From the NCBI RefSeq assembly GCF_000003605.2, contig NW_003118931.1:381017-445016 (forward strand): a stretch of 64,000 bases of DNA, read 5' to 3'. The notes beneath the pieces were generated by a model, which did no database searches, was not told the origin of the DNA, and saw only the letters and a program-made list of their open reading frames with translations. Of this stretch, positions 1-61,882 are shown one piece after another. The translations under genes were made by a program, and so were the position numbers. Numbering within the stretch: the stretch's first letter is position 1; each line of letters starts with the position of its first letter. This stretch comes from Saccoglossus kowalevskii. Lineage: Eukaryota > Hemichordata > Enteropneusta > Harrimaniidae.

Positions 1-335
1 CATTTTTGAGAGGCAAACTGAATATGGCATGAAATATTTACCGCATTTTACTTGTATTAACAGGTCATTGTCGAAGTGTAGTTTACGCACGGTTACCGTG
101 TTCTACGCATTCACAACATGTTCACAGCGGTCGATATCCACGCTGTATCATATAAAAACGATTACCAAGATTCGTTACGCAAGACCAAGTTTTAAATTAG
201 TTACATTTTGAAGGGGTGGGCGCTTTGCCGAATGTGACCCCGAATATAAAAAATGCGCAAAAGTAGGGGGTGGGCGCTTGCCCGGGCATGGGCGCTAACG
301 CGGTCGAGTATGGTAATACACATGCAGACATTTAC

Positions 336-17348: not shown

Positions 17349-17565
17349 TTCATCATGGGCATCTATTCTTCGACGATGGATGATGATGATGATACAGATT
17401 TGAATTTCTTACTAAAATCAAAGACGTTGACGCAAGAAGACGAAGAACTGAAAAAATATAATTTCCCATTTGAGAACCTCGTGATGGATGGAGGTGGGAC
17501 CAAATGAGTTACATATGCAGGAGTAATTAAGGTGATTTGTTAAGATAAATGGTCTTCATCTAGGT

Positions 17566-17640
17566 GTTGTTAAAGGCCGGTGGTCGTCGTGCAGCGACAA
17601 TGTATTTTACATGTGTTGTACGCGTTCCCATGAATGGTAT
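17566..17640 (-). repeat. Truncated copy of the TTAA MITE
   Basis: TTAAAGGCCGGTGGTCGTCG followed by ACAATGTATTTTACATG matches the reverse complement of the MITE at 11575-11707, with an internal deletion. It lies in the first intron of the patatin pseudogene. Confidence 0.5.
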
Positions 17641-20600
17641 GGTCAAAATGGTCATAAAAACATGACCCAGATTAGTCAGAAAAATGTCCCGTTTATGTTT
17701 CTATAACAAAACATGTTTTAGATATGTCCAAATCATGTCTGGGACAATTGTGCACTTCTATAGAGATATGTTTATAACACGATTGAAACATTTCAGACGA
17801 AAATAATTAATTTAACATTAGTTCAAAACTTGTTTGTTAGATGTAGGCATATTTCAGACTAGTCTTGAAAACGTCACAGATATTCTCAGTAAATTTTCAA
17901 ACCTTGCTGTTCATGAAATCGTATTCAAACTACAAAGATGGGCATTCCTCAGACAGGTCTCAAACATGTCCAAAAAGGCATAGAATATTTGTGTACTCCG
18001 AGGCATAATTACATGAAGTCTCACACTATCTCTCGGGATTTTATGAGATCTGTGGTCGGTCATGTTGCATTTTTAGGTAAACATGATGTGGTATCATAAT
18101 TGTTGAGTCTTCATACTGATGTCAGAGTGTCTTTGTTCAGACCACTAATTATATTCATGTTTGAAATGTGTCTGAAACACGTATATATTTGGGATATGTT
18201 TATGTTACGTAGTACCCCTAAAAATGGTTTAATAAGTTGCTACTTTGTTTTAGAACGACATTTCAAATACATATTTATGCAATTTTGATATAATCGCAAA
18301 TTTACTATGGTATTGCAAACTAATTGTTAATTGAATTGTCGATGTCCCAAGGTTAAATAAAATATACCTTATTTTCTATAAATATGAATGGTGTCCCAGC
18401 CTATAATCTTACATTTTATTGCATATGCCAAATGCGTATTATAAAGACTACCATTGTTATTTAAAGAGATCACACGGAATGCGTAATTTAACTAGTAACA
18501 TTGTTTACAAATAGCAAATACGTGTAAAGGGGGAACACAGATCAGAAGACGTTTGAAACAAACAAACAAAGCGATATATACGCGTGTTATAAGATTTAGT
18601 CCAATTGCAAGTTTCAGAATCTGATCCTGGTCAAAAAAAAGAAAATTGAAGTGCCAGGCAGCCCAGAAAGTCTATATTATGTACACCACTTTTTATACTC
18701 TGCCATTCATCAATGCATGTACACTATATATCCCTATACATAAATAAATAAATTATGCATATATTAAGAATAATAATCTGTTAACTATGCCATAACGGGT
18801 GCTTAGAATTTGTCACTCATCAACACTTAATTGCAAAAATCTGGTTTCACACAACAACACAAATGTTTGATGTCGCGATCATCATATGTTATGTGTGAAC
18901 CATCTTACGAAATACCAAACCGAACATGCCAAAATACATTCGGACATATTTACTCTGCGTTTTTGTTATTTTGTATTATTAAATCACTATTTACAGGCAA
19001 GGCGTACAATCAAGAGTATGTTTCACAGATGTAATTATTTAAAAAGCTGCTAAAATTCGGATAATTTAACATTTTCGGATTTTCTAACCTCCAATCTATG
19101 CACATACCCAATTTTCTACGAGTATTTTCTGCTATACTTCGTGTCTAACGAAACAACCCAACATGGGATTTACACCCATGTTTGGTGACTGGCGCAAATG
19201 TTACCATTGAACATATCAGCTTTTATTGAATTTCACAATACATATTTATTGTCATGACCCGTGCTGTCATATCGAATGCTTAAGTAATGACTTCCACTAG
19301 GCACATTTGTTTTGTCGGATGTCTATTTCAGGTGTTGACAGATGTTGGGATTTTTACGAATATTAAACGATTTGCAGGAAGCAGCATTGGATCCATAGGT
19401 GCATGTATGTTGTCTATTGGCTATGACCCTAGTGAAATCATGTCGTTTATGGACCAAGATCTTACTGAAAAAGTCGAAGGTAATGATTGCAACCAAATGA
19501 GTACATATTTCGTAGACACATGCACAATCATAAAATTTGAAACATCTGACGACATTTGCTATGTTATGTTTTAAATTATATTTCATTAATTTGAACAAGT
19601 AATTTATATTTGCAAGTCAAACGACGTGTGTTATGATTGTTGACAATTTTAGAACGAAGATTAAACACATAATATTTATATCATAATTACAGATCATTCA
19701 TGTGGAATCTGTAGTTTATTGGCAAATGTTTTATCTCGTTTCGGATGGAACCCGGGAAACACATTATACGAATGGATTGGTGATAAACTGGAAGAAAAGA
19801 CAGCCAATCGAGATATTACTTTAAAACAAGTAAGAATGCTTACCTAATATGTAAATATTATTTATATCAACTCACTGTCAAAGTGTATTTAAGGAAAATG
19901 CCGGTCTGATTTGCACTTGCATTAAACTTGACACAGTTTTAATTTAGTAGCGAAGCAGTGATATGATTTTCTGAAGTAATCGTTCAAATTGTGACACAAG
20001 CACGAAACTTTTTATGGAAGGTGTTAACATCAATAACATAAACTGTAAAATAACGTGAGCCAATGACAAATACAAGATCCAAATGGCCAGCTTTCAAGAC
20101 CACACCATAAACGTGATGGCTGTTTGAGGGAATCAGTGAAGACGGCAATTGATTATACATATTTATTTAGAAAAGCGAGTTTTGGTTTAATCCAAATTGT
20201 CCACATTGTATAATGTCAATCATTGCAGTTCGTTTTCGCAGCATAAATCAGATAGATGCTTTATTTGTTACAACATTTTGCTGTTCAAATTCTTGGGCCT
20301 AAATTAGCAGTCATACAAATAGATAAGCGGATTATGCCATATTATATTATACCAACATTTCAATTTCCTGATTACGTCGTTGTATTTTAATTATGCAAGC
20401 CGTGGTTAAATATACCATATACCACGTTTTTTGTGCTTTGAAGTAGGGCCCAGACAATTGGGGTCCCATTAGATTGTACCAGCATGTCATGAAACTGGTC
20501 AAAATTGTGTTTTTGTATAATTGCCTCTTGAGTGATTTTACCTTAATTTAATAATAAGCTGCATAACTTTAAAACAAGGTCTCGTTCAATCACATTACTG

Positions 20601-22358
20601 TGTGAACGGCACCGATAAACTGATATAATTAGTCTTAACCAATAAAACAACTATTTTTTCTAGCTGTATATCAAAACCGACAAAAAAGAACTGTGTGTGG
20701 CTGTGGTAAATGTAAATCGTATGTGTGTCGAGTACTGCCACGTTAAGACAACACCAAATTTACCTGTACGGCTTGCTGTCAGAATGTCAATCTCGATTCC
20801 AAGTAAGTATGAATATATATATATATTACATAGTCCTGGGACTTTTCAACTTTTTGATCGCGGCTAACTCGAAAAAACAAACTGCAAATTAATGGTTGTA
20901 TTGATTACGTGACATTTGTTTCCATGGAATCAACGACGTTGCGATCCCTATAACGTTAACCCCAACTTTGGGGCCAGAATACAAATCTAAAAATGTAAAA
21001 TCCTTTACAATTCACAAGCTGTGTCCTTTAATAAGTGTAATCTGTGTTTTCCCGGAATGTCATCATATCAGACCAAGATGTCATAAACATACATATCTTA
21101 GGAAAATATTTGTGTAATGAATATGTAATGAGTAACGAATACTTGACATTCTAAGCATGTGACCTTTCATCTACTTCAGTTTTCTTCGAACCTGTTAAAT
21201 ATAAGAACGGTGAACACGTGGACTACTATGTTGACAGTGGATTACTGGCCAATTATCCAATACACTGCTTTGACGGTACGATGCAAAATTTCATTCACAA
21301 TTATTCGTTTTATTGATTAATTGATTTGTGCGTGTCTGCTTACAAGGACGAGGTACCTTACCATAGTCACGGACCCCAATTCCACAAGTAGCGCGTTTAT
21401 TTTTGTAATTTGTCTATAATACATTACATAGACAGACTGATAAATTTTCCACAATCGGCTCAGCAACAATAAAGTTTGTCAAATGGTCGTTAATACACGT
21501 GTTTTAGCTTATGTTGAAGAGATAATTCGATTAAGATAATATTACCTACTTGATAAGTATGCGTGGTTTCTGTGAACTGTTTAGGTTGGTGGTGGTTGTC
21601 TCTGAAGCCCGAAGACAGTCTTCTCATTCGATTACAACACTTAAACCAAATACCTGAACTTCTGAAAAAGGAGAACAGATTCGGTGAATACAATGATAAG
21701 AATCTGGGGGTGTTAATGGTGAGGCATCTTTCCTTATTTGATGCGAGATAATGCGGAAGCCATAACAGAAACCCTTTAATCGACTTCGCAATATAAATTT
21801 ATAATCTAATTTTGACACATCATTTTGACTTTAATCCTGTATTCATTCGGTTTCATTTCCAGCTTAATTAGAATAAACTATAACAATAAAAGAGAATAAA
21901 TCGAAATCACAAGATGTATGTGTGTATGTATTATGCGCAAATAAACTCAGACTGATTTCACATACACAAATGTATGCACTCAGTGATATACTAATAATAA
22001 ATAAAGTCTATTTTTCTAGGTTGCTGACAACGATCCTGAATTATTTAGTGATTTACTGACAAGAGAAATACCACGGGAACAGTAGTATTGACAGACCTGA
22101 CACGGCAGTAGCTAAGTAAGTCGAATAACGGAAACTTAACTGCCTGGGTGCATACACATTTCCTTCTATAGTAGTCAGATTTGTACACACGTATTTCACA
22201 TTAGATACACTGTGGTGTCATGTGTTACATTAGGAAAGTTCCGTAACAAAGCTTGTAATTAATTCCACGGTACGGTTAAATTGATCTTGTCGAACCTTTG
22301 AGAACACCAATATTTGTCTTAACATGTATTATTTGATTATGCATTTTAAAATGTAGTA

Positions 22359-22560
22359 CAGTGACTCTTCGCTAAGTCGCGGGTGTCGGTATCCAAGCAA
22401 AAACTGTAACTTATCAGGGGTCGCCACATATACTGCATATACATACATGGGTTATTTATAATACGTTATCTTTATGAAAACATCACAGCGCCACAACTTT
22501 ATCGATGTCACCATTGTCGGATAATTTTCGACTGCTAGATCATGTGCAACCCTTTTATTG
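22359..22560 (-). mobile_element. Relic of the Tigger/pogo-type element
   Basis: CAGTGACTCTTCGCTAAGTC preceded by TA repeats the left end of the element at 7947-9079. Internal similarity follows, including the stretch encoding PTMVTSIKL on the minus strand. The right end is missing. It sits in the intron between exons 7 and 8 of the patatin pseudogene. Confidence 0.65.
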
Positions 22561-23550
22561 TCACAGTCAATCGCTGCGAGTTTTTTTACGTGCGGCGTAA
22601 TTATTATTAATGTGTTGTGTGTTTTGCTGTTATCTGTTGCCTGTTCTGTGTAAATCAATCATGTTTCTAGGAAATGCAATGACATGCAATATGAGAAGAA
22701 ACTATTAGAGCGAGACCATGAAAAATATTTGATTCAATCTGTCAATTGTTGAAAGTACTGGCTGAAACCGACCTCGATAACAGGAGTACCATCGATAGAA
22801 AAGAATTGCGAGATGCTTTAACCAATGTTTGTATCATATATTATAAGATCAGTAAACGTGGAGAACGTTTTATACAACATCTACATATATGGCATGTTTT
22901 AAATAGATTAGATGCAATTTCGTAATTAAAATACCTGTCAGGTAAACTGCATCTCTTCCTTAAATGTATTTATATTTTCAAGAACGATGCGTTCACTGTA
23001 GATCACAAAAAACAGATTTTTGGTGAGGACTATGATCTGGACACAATTTTTGACAAGTTGGATGTCGATAACAATGGTCAGGTTAGTGATGTTGTACTAT
23101 TTATAGAACAAATATTAATAACAAATGCGACGGCTCTAATACCGATTTATCTTTCTGTCGTGAGATATTATAAATTGATCTGATTATCTTATATACAGAT
23201 TCATTTTCGAGAACTGATGTCGCTTGCCGAGAAAAAAGGTCTTTACGTGCAGAACCTCTACCTTGGTTTCAACTGACAACACATCAACAATCTCAAAGAT
23301 TTTCTAACTTCCATGATTCGCGCTTCCTCATTTAATATTAGGAGATTGAACACGACTGTGAGTATCTAAGATTATTGATCTGTCACGTAACATTATGTAT
23401 CGGTTATGTATCAATATAATTTCAATTCACTGTTGTTGAAATATATCGATGTAATTTCAGCCGAGAGATGTGAATCGCACTATTGTTGTAGATACGGGTT
23501 ATCTTGGTGCCCTGGACTTTGAAATGGAATCGGCAGTTTATGCAGTGCAG

Positions 23551-24400
23551 GTATTACATATGTATATGCGCAAAAAACTTAAGATATATGTGCATTCTGT
23601 TGACACCGCTGTGTACAGATTTTCAATATTACTTTATTACATGATCATTGACGGTCATATACACAAGTGTTGGTTCACCTATATGCTTAGACGGCTTACA
23701 TAATTAGTATACGATTCATAAAGGTCAGTAAAACGCTGTCATGTATTCTTGTCAGAATAAAAACACTTAAACGACCATAGTTTATTCAGTAGGGCTGACA
23801 AATTGACAGTCATTCATTCATTATTCATTATTATTGCATTCAGTTTGTCATTATCCCAAATTACCCAATCATCTTCATATTATAACCATTTGCAATAAAA
23901 TGTATCTAACATATAAAATAATATCAGAGAACTATATAGATACTAGTATATACAAATAACTTATTCTGTAAATACCCAATTGATTATGCAACATAGCGAG
24001 TTCTCATGTCAATTGTCACAGGTTCATACAGGCAGGGGTTCTGTCACTCCACAAGACGGAGTGTCAATAGTTTGATGTTCAAATATCAAAGCCGCAACCT
24101 GTGCGTAGTTCCGTCTTCAAATACATGGATAACCAAGAACTTCAGTGTTCAACCCACGTTTACGTAGCCGACAGTTTCCCACTATGGTCTTGTTTTTTGA
24201 CCTCTAATTAAAATTGACATTAACGTTTAGTGGCACAGGTGACTGGGTAAAATTTTCTCAAATGGTTTCATCATACCTTCATATATGTAGCAATTGACCC
24301 CTCGGGTCGCTGAAAAAAATTGTTATCGATAAAACCGTAAACTCCCCAAGCATTTTTAATACAAACAAATTAATAACATAAATTCAAATATGCTTAGTTG
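23551..24400. other. Intergenic stretch after copy 1, no feature seen
   Basis: The short last exon present in copies 2 and 3 (starting QGMVGTLRYL) was searched for here by eye and not found. Otherwise AT-rich sequence without recognisable content. Confidence 0.45.
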
Positions 24401-30109: not shown

Positions 30110-33100
30110 ATGGGGGCAGCTGAATCAAAGGATGACGTGGTCGAAGAGATTCTCAATAAAGACTCGTTGACAACCGCCGAAGACAAAGAACTGACAAAGT
30201 ACGAATTTCCGTTCGAAAATCTGATCTTAGAAGGAGGTGGTGTTAAAGGAGTGGCCTATGCTGGAGTGATAAAGGTAAACAAATAAACAATGAATTTAGA
30301 TTACACATCTTTTTGCACGAATCTACATCTTTCACATTTTGTGTATTTTCACCACAATTTACATGTTGGGTAGTCTATATATATACGTAAGATGGATAAA
30401 ATAAAAATAGTATAGATCTAATAACAGTTAATCGTTGCCCCATATCACATTATGGTACAATATACAATTGGGATACAATATACACCATTTAAAAAGTAAA
30501 ACATTATTATGTTATTATTACTGTTACTTTATTTCTGCTTTATGCCTTAAAGATTTTGACCGATGTCGGAATCTACCAAAACATAAAACGCTTTGGTGGT
30601 GGTAGTATCGGGTCTATGTTTGCCTGCATGTTAGTGGTAGGCTACCCACCAAACGAGGTCATGCTGATGATGGACCGTGAGCTCAAGGATATTGCTGAAG
30701 GTATGTACACTAAAAGCTATTTTTTAGCAGTATACGAAATGTATGCGTTATATAACCAACACAATATCTATACAAAGGTGATGGATAGTGAGTGAATGTA
30801 CTAGTATTCTTCGACATGACTTGTTGGCGGGCGTGAAAGGTTTATATACTTCCCCCATCCTCAGTTTACTTTTCACAAATTGCGGATCAACAGCTTCCAG
30901 GTCGCATTTCAACATCGCGGTAATTCACTTCCGCATTGCGTTGAAAAAAATACTTCGTCAATAATCGGAAAACTTCGTCTGTACGACACAGTATTTTGAT
31001 TGGTTAACGAAAGACATGACCTGTTAGGTCAAAGGAAGTTGTTCAGGTCAAATCATGATGAAAACACCATGGCGGAAATAGCTTTGTATCGAGAGTTTCC
31101 GTACGATCGAAAACATTCAACAACGAAGATAATGATAAAGATCTTGCCTTCGACCGTTTTCCTACAGACCCTACCCATTTTTGCACCGCAAATTCAAACG
31201 GTATGTAAAACCGTATTGTAATAAAATATGTGTATTTTTATGGACATGTTTATTTCTTCATTGTGAAAGTGGAAATCAGTGACGTATTTTTTCCTCAAAA
31301 AGACGTAGGATAATATTTCTCCGAGACCGGCGCTGTGAACAAAAAGTGCAATTTGGTAATTCTTCGAGGTTGGGAAGATGGTTACAATTTTAAACCCACC
31401 AACAAATTATCTTTTCTGAGGTGGTCCTCGAGTATAAGCCCATTTTCGGGCCCCTGGGCTTATACTCGGGGAAGTACGGTATATAACAATGTGTATACGA
31501 TGTAGGTAATTGTTCAAAATTATTATCTAATATATATGCTAACTCTAAACATAAACCACTGAATACCAGTACATTAACGTTCAGTTACTAATATTAATTA
31601 ATATTCATTAATATTCAGTTACTGAATATAAAAGAGAGTATATATTTTATATAATTGAGTAACAAATATGTACACTAATCAACTAAGTACTAACATATTG
31701 ATACTTGAGAATTCACCCAAAAAATGTGTACAATATAAATTTAATAATATAACAGTAGATATACGCTCAACTAAACGTACTGATGCTTATGAAAAATAAC
31801 TCAGAGAATAAACTGTTCCTTTTCTGAACTAGGCACTTACTAAAAGGTGTATTTGTCTGAAAACGGTTTGTTTCGGTTTGTTTTGGGTTTATTTGGTTTA
31901 AATATAATATCTTGTATAATATTCGCGTTTACTGACAAGCCAGTCTAGTGTTAATACGGCTTTGTAACAAACCATTTGATGTTGATTTATGTGTTTCAAG
32001 AACCGCCTAGTGTTTGAAATTACCAAACACGGAGTAGGAACCTGTTAATTTTCACTTTGATAGATGTTCCCTATGCCGAGTGGTGCAAGTGTTTTATTAT
32101 GGAAATACCCCAAATGAGTCAATTTTGTACCTTGCCATCATGGAAATGTGTATAGGTGTACTACACCAACTCTTTAATGGTAATAAACTGGGATAAGACG
32201 ACTTAATAGTAGATTCTTTTTAAGAATCAGTGCAAAGAAATTCCGATGTGAACGTATGACTCAATCACCATTGACGTATATGCAGGCTAATGAGTGGAAT
32301 TATATGCTGTGAATTTCGTTCATTAAATGATTGATTTGCATAAATGCCATTTTGCAACAGCAAATATTTCTGTAGGCCATTGTATATTTGATTGGATTAT
32401 AGACAACGCAATATGCTACAATTGGAGAACAATGTCTTTTCACCAACAAACCCGTTTTGTTATACACATTTAAGTGTATGTCCCGTACATGTAACAGTGC
32501 AAGGACATTACATAAAATATTCTAATCTTCAAACAAAGACACGAGAAGCTAATTTGAGATAAATAAAATACAAATATATCACCGTATCGCATAAAATGTA
32601 TACTTTCAGACCACTCATGTGGAATATTCAGTTTCCTGCCTAATCTAATTACAAAATACGGGTGGAATCCTGGATCCAAATTGTATAAATGGTTTGGCAA
32701 AAAACTTGAAGACAAGACTGGGAATAAAGATATCACATTTAAAGAGGTATGTATTGGCACGTGGATGACATATATTATATAATGGAGTTATAGTGATCTT
32801 TTAAAATTATAGTGTACTTGAGAAGAAACATAAAAACTAGAAACCTGAAAAACTCGCCAATACCATTATCGTGTCATGTTAAATGGGCTCAAGGACATAA
32901 CAAATAACTCAATTGACAAAAGATACGATAGTTCAAATATTTATATTTATATTGACATCGTGAATACACAGAAAAGCAATAGCATTAATTTTATACGATT
33001 AGCACTGAAATAATATTAGTATATATATGACAATGTTGTTATATTTGAACAGCGACAACAAGAGAAAACGAAAGTTGTAATTGTGGGTTCCGATTTTGAA

Positions 33101-36100
33101 GACAATTTCTGGAAAAAAAATTGCTCGAGCAGATTCACATTCATACATTTTATTTCCCCCAAAAATAAATAAAAATGCCTGAGTTTCATCGCCATGTCCG
33201 TTTACTTGCAGCTGTACAATTATACTGGCAAAGAGCTTTGTATAACTGTGACCAACGTCAGTCGTCGAACTACTGAGTACTGTCACATGAAGACTACACC
33301 CAATATGGCGGTACGAATGGCTGTTAGAATGTCCATGTCTATTCCTGGTAATTTACATAAATTATTTGTTTATTATATACTAAATTTCAAATTAATTAAC
33401 AATTTAACCCAAGTCACAATATTACATCTTGTAAAAACATGTTTTCCCAGTCGTGTTACAACCTTGGTATTTCGTTCTCGATTTCTCACACGCCCGTTTG
33501 AGATAATATAATCCTATTTTCTCATATGCCAGATCATTCGTCAATTACATTCAACTGCACTGCTACCAAACATTTTATATAATAAATTAAAAATGAAAAC
33601 TATGAAAAAGGCAATGACACGAAAAAGTGCATTGGAGATTGATTGCAAGAAAACGATTAGTGTTCATAGTGAAGTTAGAGTTGCAATTAATATTCATGAG
33701 CTTAAATCACATGACCAAGTTAGTAGAACACGGTGCATGCAGGATCGAAGTCACCAATATCATGATCGACCATCAACTAACATACTGTTCAAACCATCAC
33801 GATTCACATGGATTAGTTTGACATCAATAAATCATAATTTGAATAGCGCCGAGCACAGTGATTTAACGTGTGATATTTCGGTGTTTGGGATTTTTCAATT
33901 GATTAATTAAACTGACAATAATTTCACTTTAACATACCATTAAAATGTTTTTTTTTTAAATAGTTTTAAGTGTAACTGAGAATGAATAATTAAACTTTGT
34001 TATGCATTTTTTTTTATTGCTGGCTAATAATGCCAACATATTACGTAATCTTGTATTAAAGTATTAAATGAAAGTGTTTGAAATATGTATTGTAATTTTC
34101 TTTTCTATATACTGCAGTGACTGCTTTACTTAAAACAATAATTGCCTATTGCAATGAAATACAACCTAGTCAGTGACACATATTTTCCATATACATTTAT
34201 TTAATATTGCACTGTAGACCTTCGTCTGAATGATACACTAAAATGAAAAATCGAATACGAGTACGTATGATAAACTCAGAATTCGTCTCATATGCTATCA
34301 CATCTGCTATGTTTTTCTTTTGTTATTCTGTAGGGTTCTACGAAGCTGTTCAATATAAAAATGGTGAAAATGTTGACGTCTATGTTGATAGCTTCGTGTT
34401 GCTGAATTACCCATTGCACTGCTTTGATGGTACGCATTATGGACATGTGTTTTGCATGATTCTGTCTATATGAATACAAACTTGTAAATAATAAATAAAG
34501 ATAAGTACAAAAATATATCGAATGACAATTATAATATTTGTTTTTTTCTTTGGACAAATCGCTTCAAAAACACATTTGAATTGTTCACTATGTTACATTA
34601 ACATTGTAAATTTTTGTATATAATCTAATATTCAATTAGAAAACTATAACTACCAGCCTGGTTCTATGTATATTAATTTAAAAATATAAAAAACTCATCA
34701 CCACAGTTAAGCTACAGATTGAAAACAAAACATTCGATTAAAATATGACGAACTGGATGACAATATTTGTATCAAACAGGTGTATAATATATCACATTAA
34801 CACGATCTTACTATACAATATACAACTATACTGAGTATGGCACCTGAAATCACAATTTAATAAAATAAAATAGTGTTTTAGAAATAAAATGTTTAATTTT
34901 TCATCATTTAATGATCTAGGTTGGTGGCTGTCTACAAAACCCGAAGACAGTTTTCTAATTAAACTGCAACCCTTGAATCAAATGAGCAAGCTGTGGTCAA
35001 GCAGATTTGGTGAATTCAACAACAAAACTTTGGGAGTAATAATGGTAAGCTGAATTGGGCAAATACATATCAGTGGTTTGTTAGATTATACAGTGTATAT
35101 TGTTTTGTGAAGTTATTAAATAAACAAATACTGGTTTAATTCATAAACAAAACCAAACTAACTACTAGTATTATTATATTTTTATAGCAATCGGACACGG
35201 AACGTAAATTATATGAGGATTTTGTTTTCCGAGATGGAGAAGCTGATGCCCAGCCGGTTGAAAGACCAGATACTCCACTTGCTAGGTGAGTATGAATTGT
35301 TTGTGCAGATTACTAAATATTAATATAACATGGGTTTCTAAGTCGGTGTTTGTATGTTCTTGGATTTTTTTAGAACGGTAACACGGTACTTTTAGAATAG
35401 TTAACTTAATACTTTCACCAACAATTACAATTGTTATGTTAACACAGTGAAATTAAAATAACAGTTATTGATATATCTCATAAACTCTAAAACAAAAGCA
35501 TTAACATATATATTACACAAAAATTAAATGAAACGATAAATTAGAGCACTGACAATGGAATTACCATCCCAGACTATTACTGTAATGTTTAATATTAGAT
35601 AAATACTTAACGTAACGCATGAAAATGTATTTGTTTGTTTTTTCTTTAAATTGTCCGAATTTGGATTTTCATCACATATATTTTGTACTTGTCCTTGTGT
35701 TTACCCCACCTACGCCAAAACGCCACCTTGATAAAATATAAACCCACCCAAGGCGTTGTAATGAGTGTGATCTATATCCCCTGGGACTATATCCAAAGTT
35801 ATTGTATTACACATATTACACATACATGTACATTAGATAATCTGTTAATGTTAACCGATATTTGTGTTTAATACTCAAAGAGGTAGTGCAGAAGTAGAGC
35901 AAAAGAAAAAGGCATTGGACGAGTATCATGACAAGTTGTTTGCAGCATTCTCTGAGTTTTTGAAAGTTCTGTCTGATAGTAATCTGGACAAAAACTCCGT
36001 TATTGACAGAAACGAGTTAAGCAAGGCATTAGAAATGGTAAATAGCCCTTTTGGTTTTTGATGATAACAACGTTTTTTTTTAAAAATTAAAATGTCTTCA

Positions 36101-38350
36101 TTCTAACATAATTGTGCATATTATTTTTTTAAAGACTGACCAATCAACATTCACAACAGAACATGCAAGGACACTGTTTGGTGAGCAGTACGACTTGAGC
36201 ACAATTTTTGATCTTCTTGATGCCAATGGCGATGGAAAGGTGTGAATTCAATTCAAATATTATCACAAATATCCATTTTAATTCATTTCATTTACTTTAC
36301 CGTGTAGTCCTGGGGCTGATTTACTTTTAGGGCTGTTAATCAAAATTAGATGCATCCATTTTCAAACATATGTGTGTTGGTATTTATTTAGAAAAAACAA
36401 AACCTGACATTGTAGTTATTAAACAGGTGCTCAATATCACATATTGTCGTTTGGTGCATGTAGGAAATATTTTAAAACAACAACGTTTTGACAGGATATG
36501 TTGTAGATGTATGGAGAATACGCTAGTCTACACCAGAATTATATAAGTCTTGTATTTATTATGGCTATGTATTATGCGCTAGAAATATCGAATGAATTAT
36601 GCGCTAGAAATATCGAATGAAATTAGATATTTAGAGAATGATATATTGTTTACTGATTGGTTGCCTAATGAGTATCGCTCAAATATATAATTGTAGATGG
36701 TTATTCTCTCGCATTCGAGCTACTGTGGCATATGGAGTTTGACCCGCCGCATTGAGTGTTATAAAATGTAGAACAATTGTAAAAGCTGGTGTTATTTCTT
36801 CAGTTGAACGGGGTTATTTTGTGTTAACTGCTGCTGTCCGTTCTTTGCCAAGATGCCAAGCGATAGCAATATTTACAGTCACGCGCATGTTATATGAAAA
36901 CATCACTTTCTTTTAGATAAATTACTACGAGCTGATTACATTTGCTCAGAAGAGGGGAATTGATGTACAGAGTCGTTTTACTGGTTACGATCGAACAGAG
37001 ATAACCGGCATCGGAGGGTTTTTAGGATCAATGATGGAGTCTATGACAATGAACTTACAACGGATTGGCTTTACTGTGAGTAACCACAGATATATATACG
37101 ATATATCAAGACCTCGAAAACTTTTGTTCTCAGTCACTGGCCCTATAATATCTGATATATTAATAAGATCAATACTAATTAGTGTTTAAGGTTGTTGGAT
37201 ACACTTAAAATAAATACAGATTCTCTTGACTTTTGAATTGAATTAGTTTCTAGAATAAAAAGAGGCACCATATCTCAAAATATCTTTTGATGAAAAAATA
37301 GTATGTAGTTGTGAGATGATATTTATGGTTGCCAAATATTATTAGGCCATTCTGGTGATTACTGTTTATGTATAAATCGAAAATATTGTGACACTTTTGA
37401 AACAAAAAAATGTGGTAATTTCTTCGGCCCTAATTTTTGATCTAATTATCGCCATCTACTTTAACACAAAGATATGAATGTTTGAATAAATGTGAAAATG
37501 AAAGTTGATTAGTGTTCGTGGATGAATATAATGTGGTCTATCAATGCCTTTTTTCTTATTCCTAACCTGACTGAATAATTTCCCGGCTAGAATAGCAGTG
37601 TTATCATAACATACCAGCTGTTTATGCGTTTTCATTGTCACTGGTATGTTGGTTAAGAAAACCGCGGTCATAATATACTCCTTGACAGGCAAACTTAACT
37701 AACTTGAATTTTGACATCGAAAACGTATAATTCAAGGACTTCCTCCTGAAATATATTAATGTGCTCATATTTTTCGTTTTTTGGGATACATTGAAAGCCA
37801 TTCAAACCTATTACTAGGATTATATATTAACAGAAAATACATGATACTGTTAAAAGTTAATAGTAGTAAGCTACTTTCTTCCTCGGTTTAAAATGAGTAC
37901 ACTAGTGTTTATATATTTGCATATATATTATTTGTGGATGATATGCACCGTAAGATTAAGTAAAATAACAAAATATATTAACCAAAATTGATTATGACTA
38001 TGCTGTCGTACTGTTAATTTCAGGCAAATGATGTCGATCGTACTATTGGTGTTGATGTCGGTTATATTGGCAGTTTGGATATGGATTTGACTCCTGAAGA
38101 TAATCTATATGCAGTTAAGGTATTATCTTCTTCCAGTATATCTGCAACACTCAAATGGAATAAAAGTAGTGTTTTCATTATCCTTACTTCTGAGTTTATG
38201 CTTTGCAGGGGCCAAGTCGCTCTACTGCCCCCATAATCATATACCAATATTATTAAATCATCTTTTTATGTTTCTCAACAGCAAGGTATGGTAGGAACAC
38301 TCCGATATTTGAGATACTACGTGAAAAAATTTAACCCACCTGTAAAATAA
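30110..38350 (+). CDS. Patatin-like phospholipase with nested EF-hand pair, copy 2 (intact)
   Basis: Twelve exons: 30110-30274, 30553-30700, 32610-32746, 33212-33347, 34334-34429, 34920-35044, 35188-35285, 35881-36037, 36135-36239, 36917-37075, 38024-38119 and 38282-38350. They join in frame to 496 residues plus TAA. MGAAES fits an N-myristoylation signal. The patatin fold shows oxyanion loop EGGGVKG (41-47), nucleophile elbow GGSIG (71-75, Ser73) and a DITFKELY-TGKELCIT-NVS block. The RMSMSIP stretch and catalytic aspartate segment YVDSFVLLNYP (Asp214) follow. Two EF-hand loops come next: residues 336-347 (N, D, N, I, D, E at key positions) and the canonical 383-394 (DANGDGKINYYE). After them, RTIGVDVGYIGSLDMDLTPE (448-467) resembles the terminal patatin segment. 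Exon 2 follows AAAG rather than a strong acceptor. Known relatives are acyl hydrolases; the substrate is unknown. Confidence 0.9.
30765..31540. mobile_element. Insertion in intron 2 of copy 2, MITE-like
   Basis: Copy 3 lacks this stretch at the matching place (around 55585-55600). Near the ends are TATATACTTCCCCC (about 30845) and its rough inverse GGGGAAGTACGGTATATA (about 31469). It holds a perfect 14-bp hairpin: CGAGTATAAGCCCA at 31429-31442 pairs with 31455-31468. No transposase frame was recognised. Borders are approximate. Confidence 0.45.
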
Positions 38351-38536: not shown

Positions 38537-38616
38537 TGAATAGAATAGAATAGAATAGAATAGAATAGAATAGAATAGAATAGAATAGAATAGAATAGAA
38601 TAGAATAGAATAGAAT
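38537..38616 (+). repeat. (TAGAA)n microsatellite
   Basis: About 16 pentamers. The matching place downstream of copy 3 (about 63900-63930) has only a short ATAGAATAGATTATATTC stretch, so the array expanded in one duplicate or shrank in the other. Confidence 0.9.
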
Positions 38617-41460: not shown

Positions 41461-44400
41461 ATTATAGAATAGAATAGAAAATTGTACAGAAAACCTGAAT
41501 AAATATTAAATATACATGTATATATTTTTTCTGGTGGGGACCAGAGAGGTAGTTCTAGCAGAACTACTCTAGTCCCTGGCCCCGAAACCATACTCAAGTA
41601 TTAAAATGTACGTTGTTGTGAATAGTGATGCAAAAAACAAATTATATTGCTAAGTTAAAAATAAATAAATACATACATAATTAAGTAAATAAAGAGACTA
41701 CAAACTCTCACTAATAATAATAATGAAGAAAACAAAAATAGACAATAATACATATATTGCAATAACGCAAGTATTTATACATTAGTTAAAAGATATTTTT
41801 TTAATGCCGTTTTGAACGTGTTTCGTAAAGTTAATGTTTTTAACGAAGTTGGGAGCTCATTCCAATGTTTTACAAAAGTAAATGTCAGACTTTTCTTAGT
41901 TGAACTTAGATTAATTGGTGGTGTGACAAGTTTCTCAGAGGTTACTGATCGTGTATGGTATGGATGTGATATTGATAAGGCATAATGATCCAGAGAGTGT
42001 GCATGGCGGCCATTTTTCAAATCGTATGCAAATAAACATGTATTGTACTTACATAATTCATACACATCAAGAATGCCAAGTTGCAGGAAAAGTAGTGTGG
42101 TACTTGCTCGGAAATGAGAGAAAGAAATTAATCTGACAAACGTTTTTTGTAATTTAAAAACTGGATCAATATATGTGCTAAAAATGTGTCCCCATATTTC
42201 TAAACAATAAGCAATGTGTGGGAGAATCAACGAGTTGTAAAGTAATATCATAACGGATTTTGGTAAATAATGCCTCAAGTATGAGATTATCCCAGTTGTT
42301 TTACTGATTTTTTTAACAATGTTATTGATATGGGGTCTCCAACAAAGTGTTGAGTCAAGTGTAACATCTAAATAAAAAGCTGACGACACCATTCTTAATG
42401 ACAAATCATCAATTGATAATACGCCCTCAATAGCTGTTTTTCTTTGAGCTGTCTGAAAAATCGTGACATTTGTTTTGTCAATGTTTATACTTAATTTATT
42501 TGATTTGCACCAGGTAGCAACTTTATTTAATTCAATATTGAGTGTGTAAAGGTTTACAGAACGGTCTTTTACTGAAAAAATGAAAAAAAGGAGGGGTGAT
42601 CTAGAAATGTCATTAATATAAACTAAAAAAAGAAGAGGGCCTACGATTGACCCCTGTGGTACGCCTTTTGAAATAATTTCACAGTCAGAATCATTGTTTT
42701 TTAAACCAGTTCAAAGTTGACCCTCTAATCCCATATTGTTGTAGCTCAGTTAGCAAAATACTGTGATCAATGGTATCGAAAGCCTTTCTCAAGTCTATAA
42801 AAGCACCAAGTGTGACAAAACCTTCATCAATTCTTTTTGAGATTTCAGCTGTGAGATCAGCTAGGGCGAGTTTAGTGCTATATTGCTTTCGGAACCCGTA
42901 CTGATTTTCTGAAAGAATTTTTCAATTTGTCCATAAAGGCACACAACTGTTTATTGGCGAATGATTCGAACAGTTTGCTGAAGACAGGTAAAACGGAGAT
43001 CGGCCTGTAGTTTCTAACTTCATAAGCACATCCTTTCATGAAAATGGGATTCACTCGTGTTTTTTTCAGTTTGTTAGGGAATACGCCTTTCGACAAGGAA
43101 CAATTTATAATATAGGCGATTGGTTCGGCAATATATTCAGCAGCCACTTTCACGACTTTTGGGATTTACGAATGTCAAATTTGACATCGTGTGCACAGAT
43201 AGGGCGAAAGGAAAATTACTCTGATTGTCTGTTGCCAAGGCAGTCATTGCAATTGGTGTTACAGGTAATCTCCGAAGCATGCTTTGGTCCAAATGTGCAA
43301 ATCTGTAACAAATTCACCTGGTTTGGTGGTTGATTAAAATTTTTGAGGGGTCCCAGCTTTGCACATGTTTCCAGTCATTATTTCATTAATGGCCTGCCAT
43401 GTTTTATTATTATTGCCAGCGGAAGTGAAAAATCTGTCACGAAAATACGACTTTTTGGCAGCTTTCAACAGTTATATTACGGTACTTTTTATATTGATTG
43501 TGTACTGTTGAGCTGACAGAATGTCGTTTTGTTTTAGAAAATAGTTTGTGTTTATTTTTAATAGAGACAAGCAGTCCCTTGGTAATCCAGGGCTTTTTGA
43601 GTGATTTGGGCGAAAAACGAGTTTTAATCCTAGGGACATGTTTAGCGACAATGTTTATAAAAGGCGTCGTAGGCCAAATTTGGATCTGATATTTCATAAA
43701 TTGGCATCCATGACGTTTTTGCAACATCCGTTTTGAATGATTCAGGATTAAACACAGAAAAGTCATGTTTGTAACTATTTGTTGGATTTGTGTTAAATAT
43801 ATGACGTAAACAGCAAAAATGTGAATATGATCACTAAGATCCGCCTCTAGGGTACCGGCTTCAATAAAATAATCAAAAAAATTCATAAGACAGTGATCTA
43901 TTGTTGTAGATGTTGCTTTGGTTACTCAAGTTGGAGAGTGTATAATTTGTTGAAAATTATTGGCATAAAGAACTGTGTCATAGGCAGCATGTGCATTATT
44001 GCTGCTAGCAACATTAATGTTGACATCTCCAAGAATTTTTTTTTATTGGCACAAAACGTTTCAAGACAATGATCAAAACTATCAAGGAAATCTTGCACAG
44101 AGGTATTGGGCTTACGGTAAATTACACCTATTATAACTTGTTTGTTGTCCAATGTAGTTTCAATAAATAAACACTCACAATGACTTTGAATAACTGAGTC
44201 AATAACAGTATAAGGCAATGATTCGTGTATACACCACCTCCTGAAGTAGATGTGCGGCAATTCGAAATAAATTTTTAAGATGGCAGATTATAGATTGAGG
44301 TATCATAATTACTGTGCAACCACGTCTCACTGAGACCAATGACTGAATATTTCATTTTCAGAAGGAATAAAAGAGTTGAAAGGTCGTCAAAATGTGCACT

Positions 44401-54954: not shown

Positions 54955-57900
54955 ATGGGGGCAGCTGAATCAAAGGATGACGTGGTCGAAGAGATTCTCA
55001 ATAATGACTCGTTGACAACCACCGAAGACAAAGAACTTACAAATTACGAATTTCCGTTCGAAAATCTGATCTTAGAAGGAGGTGGTGTTAAAGGAGTGGC
55101 CTATGCTGGAGTGATAAAGGTAAACAAATAAACAGTGAACTTAGATTACACATCTTTTTGTACGGATCTACAGCTTTCACAGTTTCCCCACAATTTACAT
55201 GGTAGGTAGTCTATATATACGTACGATGGAAGAAATAAAAATAGTATGGATCTAATAACAGTTAATCGTTGACGCATATCAAAATATGGTACAATATACA
55301 ATTGGGATACAATATACACCATTTTGAAAATAAAACATTATTATGTTATTATTATGGTACTTTATTTCTGTTTTATGCCAGGTGTTGACCGATGTCGGAA
55401 TCTACCAAAACATAAAACGCTTTGGTGGTGGTAGTATTGGGTCTATGTTTGCCTGCATGTTAGCGGTAGGCTACCCACCAAACGAGGTCATGCTGATGAT
55501 GGACCGTGAGCTCAAGGATATGGCTGAAGGTATGTACACTAGAAGTAATTGTTTAACAGCATACGAAATGTATGCGATATATAACCAATATTTAATTTAT
55601 ATGCTAACTCTAAACCTAAATCACTAATTATCTGTATATTGACGTTGTTGATGATGGACATAGTTACTTAATATACAAGAGAGTATGTAATCTAAGTACT
55701 AGTATATTTATATAAATATAAAGTTATGGACAGCCAAACCAGTATGTAAACTATAAGCAACATTAATATAACTGTGGATATACACTATTCAACTAAACGT
55801 ATTGATGCGGTAGTACAAGTAACGTATATATCAGAAAACTGTTTCGACTTTTTATAATACCTGTTCAATATTTGGGTTTACTGGCAAGCCAGTCTAGGGT
55901 TTATACAGCCACGATGTCGGTCATTTTATGTGTTTCAAAAACCGCCTGATGTTTCAAATTACAGCAAACATGGCATAAATGAGGAGCCTCTTAATTCTCA
56001 GTTCGATTCCTTTGATTTATGTTTCATCGGCGGATTGCGGTTATTATGAATTAAGCCCCTCTTGTGTTTTTTTTTATGAAATTTCCCCAAATGAGACAAT
56101 TTTGTACCTTGCCATAATTAATTTAAAGTGGTTCAAAGGTAAGCTAATGGAAATGTGTGTCATAATAACTATTTATTGGCGTGCCAATAAACTGAGATAA
56201 GACGTCTTATTAGTGAATTGTATTTAACAACCGCGATAAAATAACGATGTGAACGTATTCGGGTTTAATACAAGACTCTATTTCAATTTGTTGCAGGTCA
56301 TACGAATCAATTACTATTGATCTATATGTAGGCTACTGAGTGGACTTATGCTGTGATTTTCGTTCATCAAATGATTGATTTGCATACAGTCCATTTAGCA
56401 ACAGCAGATATTTCTGTAGGCCATTGTAAATTTGATTGGATTGTAGACAACGCAATATGTGAGAATTGGAAAACAATGACTTTTCATAAAAACCTGATTT
56501 GTTATACACATTTTAGTGTATGTCGATTACATGTAACAGTACATGTACATTACATCAAATATTCCAATCATCAAACAAAAACAGGAGGAGCATGAATTGA
56601 AATCTCAAGCTAATTTAGGATAGACAAATATATCACCGTATCACATAAAATGTATTCTTTCAGACCACTCATGTGGAATATTCAGTATACTGCCTAATCT
56701 GATTACGAATTACGGGTGGAATCCTGGATCCAAATTGTATAAATGGTTTGGCAAAAAACTGGAAGACAAGACTGGGAATAAAGATATCACATTTAAAGAG
56801 GTATATGTTGGCACAACGATGAACAAATACAAAATATGTAACCGAGAACAATTCTAATAACACGTATTATTATACATCTGTCACCTTAACGCCGTAATCT
56901 TGCGGTATTGCATTTGGTTTTCTCATCCTATCATATTAGGAAACGTGAATTTCAAATATGGAACGACTACGCGCGTAAGCGTCCCCTAATGCAGTCGCAT
57001 CGATCTCCATTTCGCGTCGGTCGGTACTCCAGATGTACTGTATTCGTGCATACTTTGCATTCTTTTCGTAATAACCCCATCTTGTATAGTGCTCTCGGGA
57101 AAAACTAGGAACCTGAAAACCACGCCAAATGTCATTATCAGTCATGGTATAGGTTTGAATAGGTTTAAGGACATGACAAACTATAAAGTACAAACAACAA
57201 TTCAATTGAAAAAAAAAGATATGATAATTCAAAAAACTTATAGATCATCTAACATTATGAATACATAATGTCAATAATGTAACTGCGGGTTCCCATCTTT
57301 GAAGTCAATTTTCGAAAAACTGTCCAAACAGATTTATATCAGACTAGCAGATTTAGATTTTACACAAAAGTCTGGTCTAGAAAAAATTCAAACCTTTTAG
57401 CCCCCATAAAGTGCCAACGCTTTTGGACTAAAATACAGTTATTTATGATAAATGTTTCATCACAGTGTCCATCTACTTACAGCTGTACAATCATACTGGC
57501 AAAGAGCTTTGTATAACTGTGACCAACGTCAGTCGTCGAACTACTGAGTACTGTCACATGAAGACTACACCCAATATGGCGGTACGAATGGCTGTTAGAA
57601 TGTCCATGTCTATTCCTGGTAACTTACATACATTATTTGTCTGTTATATACTCAATGTTATATTTGTTATATTATTGTATTCATTAATCTGTAAAAAAAC
57701 CTAAACAAGTTACTTCACAATATTCACCTTGTAAAAACATGTTTTCCTAAACAGGTTACAACTTCGGCATTTCGCTCTCAAATTCGCAATATTATCCTAT
57801 TTCCTCATATGCCTGATTATTCGTCAATTACATGCAACTGCACTGCTACCAAACACGTCAACATTCATAAGTCATCAACATTTTGTATAATCGCTTTGAC

Positions 57901-60900
57901 TTGCTCACATGTCTTAATGTTTTTTTAAAAATAATAATGATGAAAACGATGAAAGCTAAAGTACATTGGAGATTGATTGCAAGAAAACAATTTGTGTTTC
58001 TTGTGAACTTTGAGTTGCAGGTAATACTCATGAGCAAAACTCACATGACCAAGTTGGTAAAACATGGTGTATGCAGAATCGAAGGCACCCACTTTCTGCG
58101 CGACAAACACATCCATATCATGGTCGACCATCAACTAACTTGGTTGACCATGTACGATTCACAATTAACAAAACGCATAATCATTGACCATATTCGCGTC
58201 TGCCTGGCCTGGTAAATTACTATTGTTATCTGTCATGGTATGAGGTAGATTTGGGAGGCCAGAGTGATGTACATTTCTCGTCACCTGTGTATCACAGTGA
58301 TGCGGATAACGACTGGCAAAAATAAAAAAAATGTCAGTATGGCTAACAAACACTAAGCCAGATGTGATCTAATTTTAGTAAAACACCATGTTAGATACAA
58401 TGAAGATGTTAACATGGGAAACACTGAAGAAGAACAACTGGTGAGATGATTTGACGAAAACAACAGACATAACCATACTGGAAAACCAGAGATGAGAAGT
58501 AATTCCCCACAAAGGCAAGGACCAAGGCCATGGAAAATATGTACTAGACCATCACAAGCAGCCAATAGCCAGCAAAAATGGGGAAAAGTTGCAGAAAGTT
58601 ACCTAATTAAACAATACGGTTGGACACATAATACAATGGTGATTCAATTACGACGACGATTGTGTTAAACTGACTACCGCCTTTTGTTAATAACTTATAG
58701 TATTGAGGTTTGAATTTGGACTAAACGAACGTAAAGAGAAAATCATGGAAAGACATGATCAGGAAATACTCCTTATAATACAGTCATATTTGAATAAAAA
58801 CACAGCCAACACAGTTGCAAAAAAGTGAATAGCCATGCTCTGAAAATGATTATCCCATAACACCCTCAGCATCAGATATGTTCTAATTGTTTCTTGGCGA
58901 CAGTGAGGAATAGCCACAGAGTTGTGAACACGACCATATTGTGTTCATCATTTATATATACACATGTGTATTCCATAGCTAAGTGATTGATATAGCTTAG
59001 ACCTAAATCCGAAGAATAGTTAACCCAGTGTATTACTGACTCTGTTTTGGATGAATGCATGTCATACATTTAGATGATAAGACATACCTTTGAGATGATT
59101 ATTGGCAGTTGGAACATTGTAGTCTATGAAGTAATGGAGAAGATAATGATTGAAGATTTTCGACACATTGTCAGAATGGTTACACAGTGTACTATTCAAA
59201 AATTCAAGATTGATATGGTTAAGTGTGACATCAATAACACCTCATTTGAATAGCGCCGAGCACGTGAGATCACGTGACTTACAGTGCCAGATGGACCATG
59301 TGAATGTGAAGACTTATGCTACAATTTTGTAAATTATGTTCATTTAGTTGTGTTATGTCTTTTAAGTAATTAAACAGGGAATTAGATCAGTTTAATATTC
59401 GTCTTTGAGATTTTTTTGAATAGTTTTAAGTGTATAAGTGAGGATAAGTAATTTTATTTTAGACTGTGTTACATTAACATCTACCAACAGGTGAATTGTT
59501 TTCTTTATTGCAGAATAATAATTCTAACATATTACGTAACCTTGCTAAGTTTTTGTCTATGCATCCAATCAGGGTTTCCGCGTATAAGAAAGGTTTTGAA
59601 ACATTTTCACATTATCATGGGGTCCTGTATATACGATAGTTTCATCCAAAAGATGATGGTGTATTGTAAAGAATTAAATAAATAAATAATTAAATTAGTA
59701 TTTTATTTTCATTGTAATTAATGAATTGATGATACACATTACCCTTAAATAAACCTCTGAAATTGTTGAAATGAACATGTGAAAATGTGTTTTTATTATT
59801 CAAAAACTGTTCCCGTGAAATTTCAATCACATCTGTTATGTATTTTCTTGTTATTCTGTAGGGTTCTACGAAGCTGTTCAATATAAAAATGGTGAAAATG
59901 TTGACATTTATGTTGATAGCTTGGTGTTGCTGAATTATCCATTGCACTGCTTTGATGGTGAGCCTTATGTGTTTTGTATGATTCTGTCTATATGAATAAG
60001 TATAAAAAATATATCAAATGAATATTGTAATATTAGATTTTTCTGTGGCAAGATCGCTTAAAAATATATTAGATTTGTTCATAATATTACATGCAAGTTG
60101 TTACTTTTTGCCATCTTTGGCAGTTGATCCAATTCATCACCAGATTAGCTACAGCTTGAATACAAGACATTCGATTAAAATTAAAACTAAAAACAGGTGC
60201 CCAATAGATCACATTAACACGATGCAATCATATATTTACCGAGGGTGACACGTGAAGTAACTATTTAATTGAATAAAGTAATGTTTTAGAAATAAAATGT
60301 TTAATTTATTAGTATCATTTGATGATCTAGGTTGGTGGCTATCTACAAAACCCGAAGACAGTTTTCTAATTAAACTACAACCCTTGAATCAAATGAGCAA
60401 GCTGTGGTCAAGCAGATTTGGTGAATTCAACAACAAAACTTTGGGAGTAATAGTGGTAAGCTGAATTCGTAAATACATATCAATCGTCTGATAGATCATA
60501 CAATATACATATTGTTTTGTGAAAATAATATAACCATCACATATAGGTTCAAGGTATGAACAAAACCAAACCAAACTATTGTCATATTCCTCTAGCAATC
60601 GGACACGGAAAGTGAATTATATGAGGATTTTGTTGTCAGAGATGGAGAACCTGATGCCCAGCCGGTTGAAAGACCAGATACACCACTTGCTAGGTTAGTA
60701 TGAATTGTTTGTGCAGATTACTAAATATTAATGTAACATGGGTTTTTAAGTCGGTGTTTGTATGTACTTTGAACGGTAACATAAACAGTTCACTTAACAA
60801 TTTCACCAACAATTAATCTTGTTACGTTAACACAATGAAATTAAAATAACATTATGCATAACCAATATCGGTGAGTGATATATCTTATATATTGCATATT

Positions 60901-61802
60901 TGTGAAACAAAATGATAGCAAAAATTAAATGTGGCGAAATGTGAACGGTGTCAATGTGAACGTTGTCAATATGAACGGTGTCTATAGATAAATTAGAGCA
61001 CTTACACTAACCATTGAACTATCTTTCCAATTGGTACTTAATAAATGTAGAATAACTGTCGGTGGCCAGATATTTTTAGTTAGAATTCAGCCCGTTAAAA
61101 TAGTGTTAAAACACGAAACACAAATCTATATCCACATTTATTGTATTACATATTACACCTAACTGCACTGAATGATCTTAATAATGTTAACCGATATTTG
61201 TCTTTAATACTCAAAGAGGCAGTGCAGAAATAGAAAAGAAGAAAAAGACATTGGAAGAGTATCATGACAAGTTGTTTGAAGCATTCTCTCAATTTTTGAA
61301 AGTTCTATCTGATAGTAATCTGGACAAAAACTCCGTTATTGACAGAAACGAGTTAAGCAAGGCATTAGAAATGGTAAATTGCTATTTTGGAATTTGATAA
61401 CTTTTTTTTTCAAAACTTAAAATTCAAATTTTGTTCATTCTAACATATCTGTGCATACTTTTATCTAAAGACTGACAAGTCAACATTCACAACAGAACAT
61501 GCAAGGACACTGTTTGGTGAGCAGTACGACTTCAAGACAGTTTTTGATCTTCTAGATGTCAATGGCGATGGAAAGGTATAATTTCAGTTCAGCTATTATT
61601 GATTATCTATGTTTCACATACTCACTTTTATTTATTTCATTGATTTTACCGTATAATCCTGCGATTTTCTTTAACGCCTTAAATAAACATTATTTGCATC
61701 ACTTTGCATAAGTTTGTTTGCATTTAATTAAAAATATACCCGAAATTGTAGGTGTCATAAGTCATATATTTATTTCTATACTATAACTATAATGTATATA
61801 TC

Positions 61803-61882
<80 letters not shown>

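Follow-up and report, generated by a model that had tools for sequence, protein, structure and literature searches.

An EF-hand pair that very probably interrupts the patatin fold in an arrayed gene of Saccoglossus kowalevskii

The window analysed here is a stretch of 64,000 nucleotides from the hemichordate Saccoglossus kowalevskii (C1169:381017-445016), and the gene in question, copy B, encodes a patatin-type protein that also carries a pair of EF-hands. Copies were sought in the animal's own genome (572 Mb, 4830 contigs), and at least seven copies or fragments of this patatin/EF-hand gene lie on one contig, C1169. Copy B has 12 exons and 11 GT..AG introns and gives a single open frame of 496 amino acids (30110-38350, plus strand). 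Its features are listed in window positions; row counts refer to 26 bacterial relatives and to the five assembled copies B, C, D, E and F (the animal rows).

30110-30274, 30553-30700, 32610-32746, 33212-33347, 34334-34429 and 34920-35044, plus strand: exons 1-6, open frame, GT..AG introns
35188-35285, 35881-36037, 36135-36239, 36917-37075, 38024-38119 and 38282-38350, plus strand: exons 7-12, open frame, GT..AG introns
30110-30130, plus strand: start MGAAESK, N-myristoylation-like by its motif (Gly2, Ser6, Lys7)
30233-30250, plus strand: oxyanion loop GGGVKG, residues 42-47; the Gly42 column is Gly in 26/26 bacterial rows
30598-30612, plus strand: nucleophile elbow GGSIG with Ser73; Ser in 26/26 bacterial and 5/5 animal rows
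34387-34389, plus strand: predicted catalytic Asp214, in VDSF; Asp in 26/26 bacterial and 5/5 animal rows
35027-35044, plus strand: TLGVIM, residues 264-269, putative strand 5 equivalent, aligned with the bacterial TLG segment; strand number from excerpts of PMC12871566
35203-36955, plus strand: insert, residues 275-402, exons 7-10; -2.4 bits to the bacterial profile, between two collinear matches
35981-36016, plus strand: EF-hand loop 1 by motif, NLDKNSVIDRNE, residues 336-347, Asn at position 1
36219-36931, plus strand: EF-hand loop 2, DANGDGKINYYE, residues 383-394, interrupted by the intron 36240-36916; PS00018-type pattern, Pfam EF-hand_1 at residues 375-400
37013-37066, plus strand: helix-like GGFLGSMMESMTMNLQRI, residues 422-439, aligned with the bacterial segment preceding the RT strand; sharing its exon with the last part of EF-hand 2
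38039-38059, plus strand: RTIGVDV, residues 448-454, putative strand 6 equivalent; Arg448 and Thr449 each in 25/26 bacterial rows, weak pairing with strand 6 of VipD
38093-38119 and 38282-38320, plus strand: residues 466-487, putative equivalent of the C-terminal patatin helix; the Gly476 column is Gly in 26/26 bacterial rows; segment name from excerpts of PMC12871566

The Pfam Patatin profile (PF01734) matches residues 38-224 of copy B with 86 bits (E 5.2e-24) against a gathering cut-off of 27.7, and the match covers profile positions 1-188 of 191. The cut-off is also exceeded by copies C, D and E. The aspartate motif reads DSF in copy B, DSL in copy C and DGG in copies D, E and F. An earlier note, written by a model from the letters of this DNA, had placed an oxyanion loop, a GGSIG elbow and an aspartate segment ahead of two EF-hand loops, and both this order and its residue numbers for the loops are exact on the 496-residue translation. 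As for the aspartate segment, Asp214 is present as described, but it stands in VDSF and not in the DG[AG] of the family.

Pfam EF-hand_7 (PF13499) matches residues 337-399 of copy B with 31.8 bits against a cut-off of 30, and is above this cut-off in copies B and C. With a PS00018-type pattern for the 12-residue loop, loop 2 fitted in all five assembled copies; loop 1 of copy B missed it, with Asn for Asp at position 1, so that only one of the two loops proposed earlier is regular in this copy. The same Asn opens loop 1 in copy C. A chance EF motif was rejected, a PS00018-type loop being present in only 31/2000 shuffles of the copy B protein. It is quite likely, judging from these patterns, that at least one calcium site would be functional, and the calcium affinity of copy B is uncertain, given the Asn-started loop 1.

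The bacterial set (n = 26) consisted of 18 of 23 loci, mostly from Bacteroidota, seven proteins from 296 sampled genomes around G001, and P0001, a Nitratidesulfovibrio plasmid protein. Left out of the 23 loci were L042, whose frame of 241 amino acids reaches the end of the sequence, and L043-L046, which are distant, unaligned patatins. The sample of 296 genomes gave 56 matches at E 1e-10, ten of them nearly full-profile; left out of the ten loci L053-L062 were L053, the same protein as L024, and L058 and L062, which had no frame with the required motifs. The 26 rows are not independent, as six rows from Flavobacteriales are near-copies. P0001 and its relatives at the 23 loci lie in single open frames. 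Segments were paired by profile search and large-gap alignment; a global alignment mispairs the bacterial TLG strand with an animal stretch.

The profile built from the 26 bacterial rows matched copy B twice and in order. Its positions 23-259 matched residues 33-274 with 191.8 bits, and its positions 259-341 matched residues 403-485 with 19.6 bits (i-Evalue 1e-7, five sequences searched); copies C, D, E and F likewise gave two in-order matches. Residues 275-402, which are 128 residues with both EF-hands, have no bacterial counterpart. The insert is thus shorter than the 150 or so residues first supposed, and the joint alignment puts it at 123-134. The C-terminal part of copy B alone scored 24.0 bits, compared with 12.7 bits for the best of 5000 shuffles (3330 reported by the program), and a profile-profile comparison of the five animal C-termini with a bacterial alignment of 14 rows (A4) gave a probability of 95.4 and an E of 2e-8 over 72 columns. 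The strand-5 segment is separated from the Arg of RTI by 44-50 residues in 26/26 bacterial rows and by 173-178 in 5/5 animal rows. In addition, one exon (36917-37075) runs without interruption from the last part of EF-hand 2 into the patatin helix GGFLGSMMESMT, and because of this the order of the two does not depend on how the exons are joined.

The stretch RTIGVDVGYIGSLDMDLTPE occupies residues 448-467 of copy B, counted on the translation. Putative equivalents of strands 5 and 6 and of the closing helix can all be aligned by sequence with bacterial relatives that lack the insert. The earlier proposal that a patatin helix and an RT segment follow the EF-hands is supported by sequence, in that residues 448-487 align with strand 6 and the closing helix of those relatives, in agreement with the fold anatomy given in excerpts of PMC12871566. 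Further support had been drawn from a pseudogene segment, VDTGYLGALDF; it is indeed present in copy A (~23488-23520), which keeps the same order in pieces, and the argument holds as far as it goes. On these alignments, we hold with high confidence that the EF-hand insertion lies inside the patatin fold. A tree of the 31 rows joins the five animal copies in one group with support 100/100; this grouping is silent on their origin because the tree is one without other eukaryotes.

What such a position would mean can be seen from the known anatomy of the fold. According to excerpts of PMC12871566, the patatin sheet has six strands, of which the PROSITE domain profile spans four, leaving strands 5 and 6 outside, and the Asp segment is followed by strand 5, a variable "regulatory segment" and a conserved C-terminal helix. 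The same excerpts state that the regulatory segment provides strand 6 in four solved structures and measures 48-83 residues in five tabulated proteins; we estimate about 196 residues for copy B (about 270-465). By this reading TLGVIM would be strand 5, RTIGVDV strand 6 and residues 466-487 the closing helix, and therefore the EF pair would fall within the regulatory segment, between strands 5 and 6.

Known proteins share parts of this arrangement. CDPK also has an enzyme and EF-hands on one chain, and in the PDB the EF block of the animal protein resembles CDPK and Entamoeba calcium-binding proteins, several of them weakly. The EF-hands of CDPK come after the catalytic domain, whereas in the animal copies they interrupt it. 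Bacterial patatins of the Pontibacter and Nitratidesulfovibrio type (L024, P0001) have the same order of oxyanion loop, GxSxG, Asp, TLG strand, helix, RT strand and closing helix, but only the 44-50 residues noted above between the landmarks and no EF-hands in the 26 rows; the best bacterial segment is 39% identical to copy E over residues 38-230. The best PDB match of copy B by sequence is the Legionella effector VipD. In VipD, as excerpts of PMC12871566 describe it, strand 6 spans Met371-Asn375, the helix spans Thr387-Ser408, and Rab5 shifts the loop 376-386 and opens the pocket; regulation thus acts through the same segment, but the regulator is a separate host protein, and those excerpts mention no EF-hand for VipD. 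They describe PNPLA9 (iPLA2-beta), an animal patatin too, as inhibited by calmodulin with calcium; there, however, the calcium sensor is a separate protein, the N-terminus carries ankyrin repeats, and the enzyme is described as calcium-independent.

Copy E and L024 were also scanned with NCBIfam models, among them those of VpdC, a Legionella effector, and of anti-phage and CBASS phospholipases. The VpdC model gave 66.9 bits for copy E and 64.4 for L024, far below its curated cut-off of 1000; DS2_1 gave 24.2 bits for copy E, under its cut-off of 400, and CBASS_lipase was listed for L024 only, at 26.1 bits under a cut-off of 200. VipD and ExoU are among the PDB resemblances, alongside these VpdC-like scores.

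An N-myristoylation consensus asks for Gly after the initial Met and for Ser or Thr at position 6. On C1169 the first exon is complete in copies A, B, C, D and E; all five start with MGxxxS, four of them with MGxxxSK. Several relatives from Bacteroidota seem, as judged by eye, to start with a signal peptide, so the animal proteins have probably become intracellular.

The ratio of nonsynonymous to synonymous substitution rates (dN/dS), estimated by the Nei-Gojobori method as point values, was 0.36 for B-C, 0.23 for B-D and 0.18 for E-F over the whole protein. The corresponding values were 0.28, 0.14 and 0.13 in the N-terminal catalytic part and 0.26, 0.34 and 0.17 in the C-terminal part; the insert gave 0.38 for B-D and 0.36 for E-F. 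Taken at face value, the ratios suggest that constraint is acting on the whole protein. In exons 9 and 12 copy D shares 93-97% identity with B and C, against 74-90% in the other exons. This pattern is suggestive of gene conversion or unequal crossing-over among the arrayed copies, and it makes regional dS values less reliable.

The explanation we favour, with a probability of about 0.6, is that copy B is an acyl hydrolase of a bacterial-like branch of patatins (Ser73-Asp214 dyad), probably intracellular, in which the EF-hand pair inserted into the regulatory segment switches the pocket by calcium. Calcium would bind the EF pair, in copies B and C mainly through loop 2 and in copy E perhaps through both loops. 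Binding would then shift the helix 422-439, strand 6 and a lid-like loop (about 454-465), and the pocket would thereby be opened or closed, much as Rab5 acts on VipD, with an N-myristoyl anchor keeping the enzyme at the membrane. The structural half of the earlier nesting claim stands at the level of sequence alignment; calcium acting on the active site, its functional half, is what we infer from the position, and direct switching seems plausible because the insert sits in the segment that governs the active site of related enzymes. Excerpts of PMC12871566 describe patatin-fold enzymes under the control of separate partners (Rab5, ubiquitin, ABHD5, calmodulin), and the inhibition of PNPLA9 by calmodulin with calcium is a precedent for calcium control from outside. 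We lean only slightly towards the view that calcium alters activity in the family, and a little further towards catalytic activity of copy B itself. The complete picture, in which the built-in pair replaces an external co-activator, calcium moves strand 6 and the lid inside the fold and the N-myristoyl group keeps the enzyme on the membrane, is tentative, and we would give it rather less than even odds.

Several observations weigh against this explanation. Taken alone, the direct match between VipD and the C-terminus does not reach significance (5.8 bits); in it the VipD stretch MIYIN lies opposite T449-D453 of copy B, and the chain index appears, from the letters, to run two ahead of the residue number. 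A DG[AG] motif with the catalytic Asp is not found in B and C. EF-hand_7 is under its cut-off in D and E, and loop 1 conforms to the PS00018-type pattern in E alone, not in B, C, D or F. dN/dS point estimates are below 1 in every region, but the EF part is the least constrained, with 0.62 in B-C (residues 313-405, from 10 nonsynonymous and four synonymous changes) and 0.52 in B-D and 0.33 in E-F (residues 321-402). The doubt about calcium switching and catalysis in copy B in particular arises because its loop 1 starts with Asn and its motif reads DSF.

Some of these points would be expected if the EF pair lay inside the fold merely as a structural or targeting module, where calcium steadies the module, or the module binds a partner or a membrane, and no catalytic switch exists. 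The irregular loop 1 in 4/5 assembled copies and the weaker constraint on the EF part than on the N-terminal catalytic part fit such a module, but the regular loop 2 in every one of those copies does not, nor does the location of the insert in the segment where, in excerpts of PMC12871566, known partners act on patatins; we consider it unlikely. Similarly doubtful is the idea that B and C are weak or dead enzymes, serving as calcium-binding lipid sensors or decoys, with the D-, E- and F-type copies as the enzymes. DSF and DSL against DGG speak for it, and because of this replacement B and C are patatin homologues that are not safely filed as active patatins; the catalytic Ser and Asp and the oxyanion loop are nevertheless intact, and the overall B-C ratio is 0.36.

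Two further alternatives deny the nesting itself. One is that a complete patatin is followed by an independent EF-hand domain with an unrelated tail. The earlier note had taken completion of the patatin domain before residue 300 to count against nesting, and this is the case only narrowly: by residue 224 the Pfam profile has been matched almost to its end (188 of 191 positions), but strands 5 and 6 fall outside the equivalent PROSITE profile (excerpts of PMC12871566). The tail aligns in order with bacterial patatin ends, above shuffles, and with this collinearity the separate-domain reading was rejected as very improbable. The other is that exons of neighbouring genes were wrongly joined or that the gene is dead. 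The broken copy A speaks for it. Against it, B, C, D and E are built on one exon plan, which F follows in its exons 2-12; a single exon holds both the last part of EF-hand 2 and the patatin helix; and the overall dN/dS is below 0.4 in B-C, B-D and E-F. A gene-model artefact was rejected on these grounds, and we give it next to no weight.

If the favoured explanation is true, enzyme and switch would be parts of one polypeptide, with the calcium sensor nested between strands 5 and 6 in a segment that is otherwise used by external partners. The family would then represent a branch, gated by calcium, of a fold that in animals is known for "calcium-independent" phospholipases, as the group VI members are described in excerpts of PMC12871566. 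Control of the active site through the regulatory segment would become testable in one compact protein, whose natural copies differ in loop 1 and in DG[AG].

In pattern-based scans, the spliced protein of copy B found no confirmed relative in viral or genome contig collections, P0001 and an alignment (A3) found none in viral contigs, and P0001 found none among phages; within reach of these scans, neither a viral nor a single-exon form with EF-hands was found. No patatin with EF-hands was seen in titles and abstract openings of the papers listed in literature searches, subscription journals and eukaryotic domain databases being outside this scope, and the architecture may already be listed somewhere. 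In passages of three papers, PMC11811501 has no EF-hand, PMC12724359 lists patatin and EF-hand apart, and the EF-hand of PMC10470789 belongs to PI-PLC.

The other members of the family are the following.

54955-63714 of the window, plus strand: copy C, intact, 496 amino acids, exon plan and element order as in B, 34 residue differences from B
~17355-23613 of the window, plus strand: copy A, diverged and broken, element order kept in pieces
C1169:470227-483260: copy D, 12-exon plan
C1169:495653-504681, minus strand: copy F, exons 2-12
C1169:520840-529975, minus strand: copy E, 12-exon plan, 506 amino acids
C1169 ~486.4-488.6 kb, minus strand: fragment, equivalents of exons 6 and 8-11
C2562:48163-51047: partial patatin relative, DGG and GTSAG present, 3' part reading N

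Copy A has in-frame stops within the equivalents of exons 1 and 10, and no equivalents of exons 7 and 12 were found in it. The first exon of copy F was not found, and a run of N lies upstream. In the C2562 relative there is no start codon after its last stop. The frame of copy D is open, with canonical GxSxG and DGG, and ATAA stands in place of the AG acceptor before exon 7 (C1169:478300-478350); this may be a recent loss, the use of another acceptor or an assembly error. Copies E and F and the fragment form a second subtype on the opposite strand (C1169:486438-505000 and 520840-529975), within which copy E matches the EF pattern in both loops.

A pentanucleotide repeat of the AGAAT type lies directly 3' of the last exon of copy B (~38545-38615). 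Elsewhere in the window, pieces of an ABC-ATPase gene occupy 201-7940 on the minus strand, with frames 201-596 and 5507-5821 matching Pfam ABC_tran; our guess is that they are of the ABCF type. Between copies B and C, at 41775-42710 on the minus strand, there is a reverse-transcriptase-like frame of 311 amino acids, which scores 26.6 bits with RVT_1, under the cut-off of 29.6.

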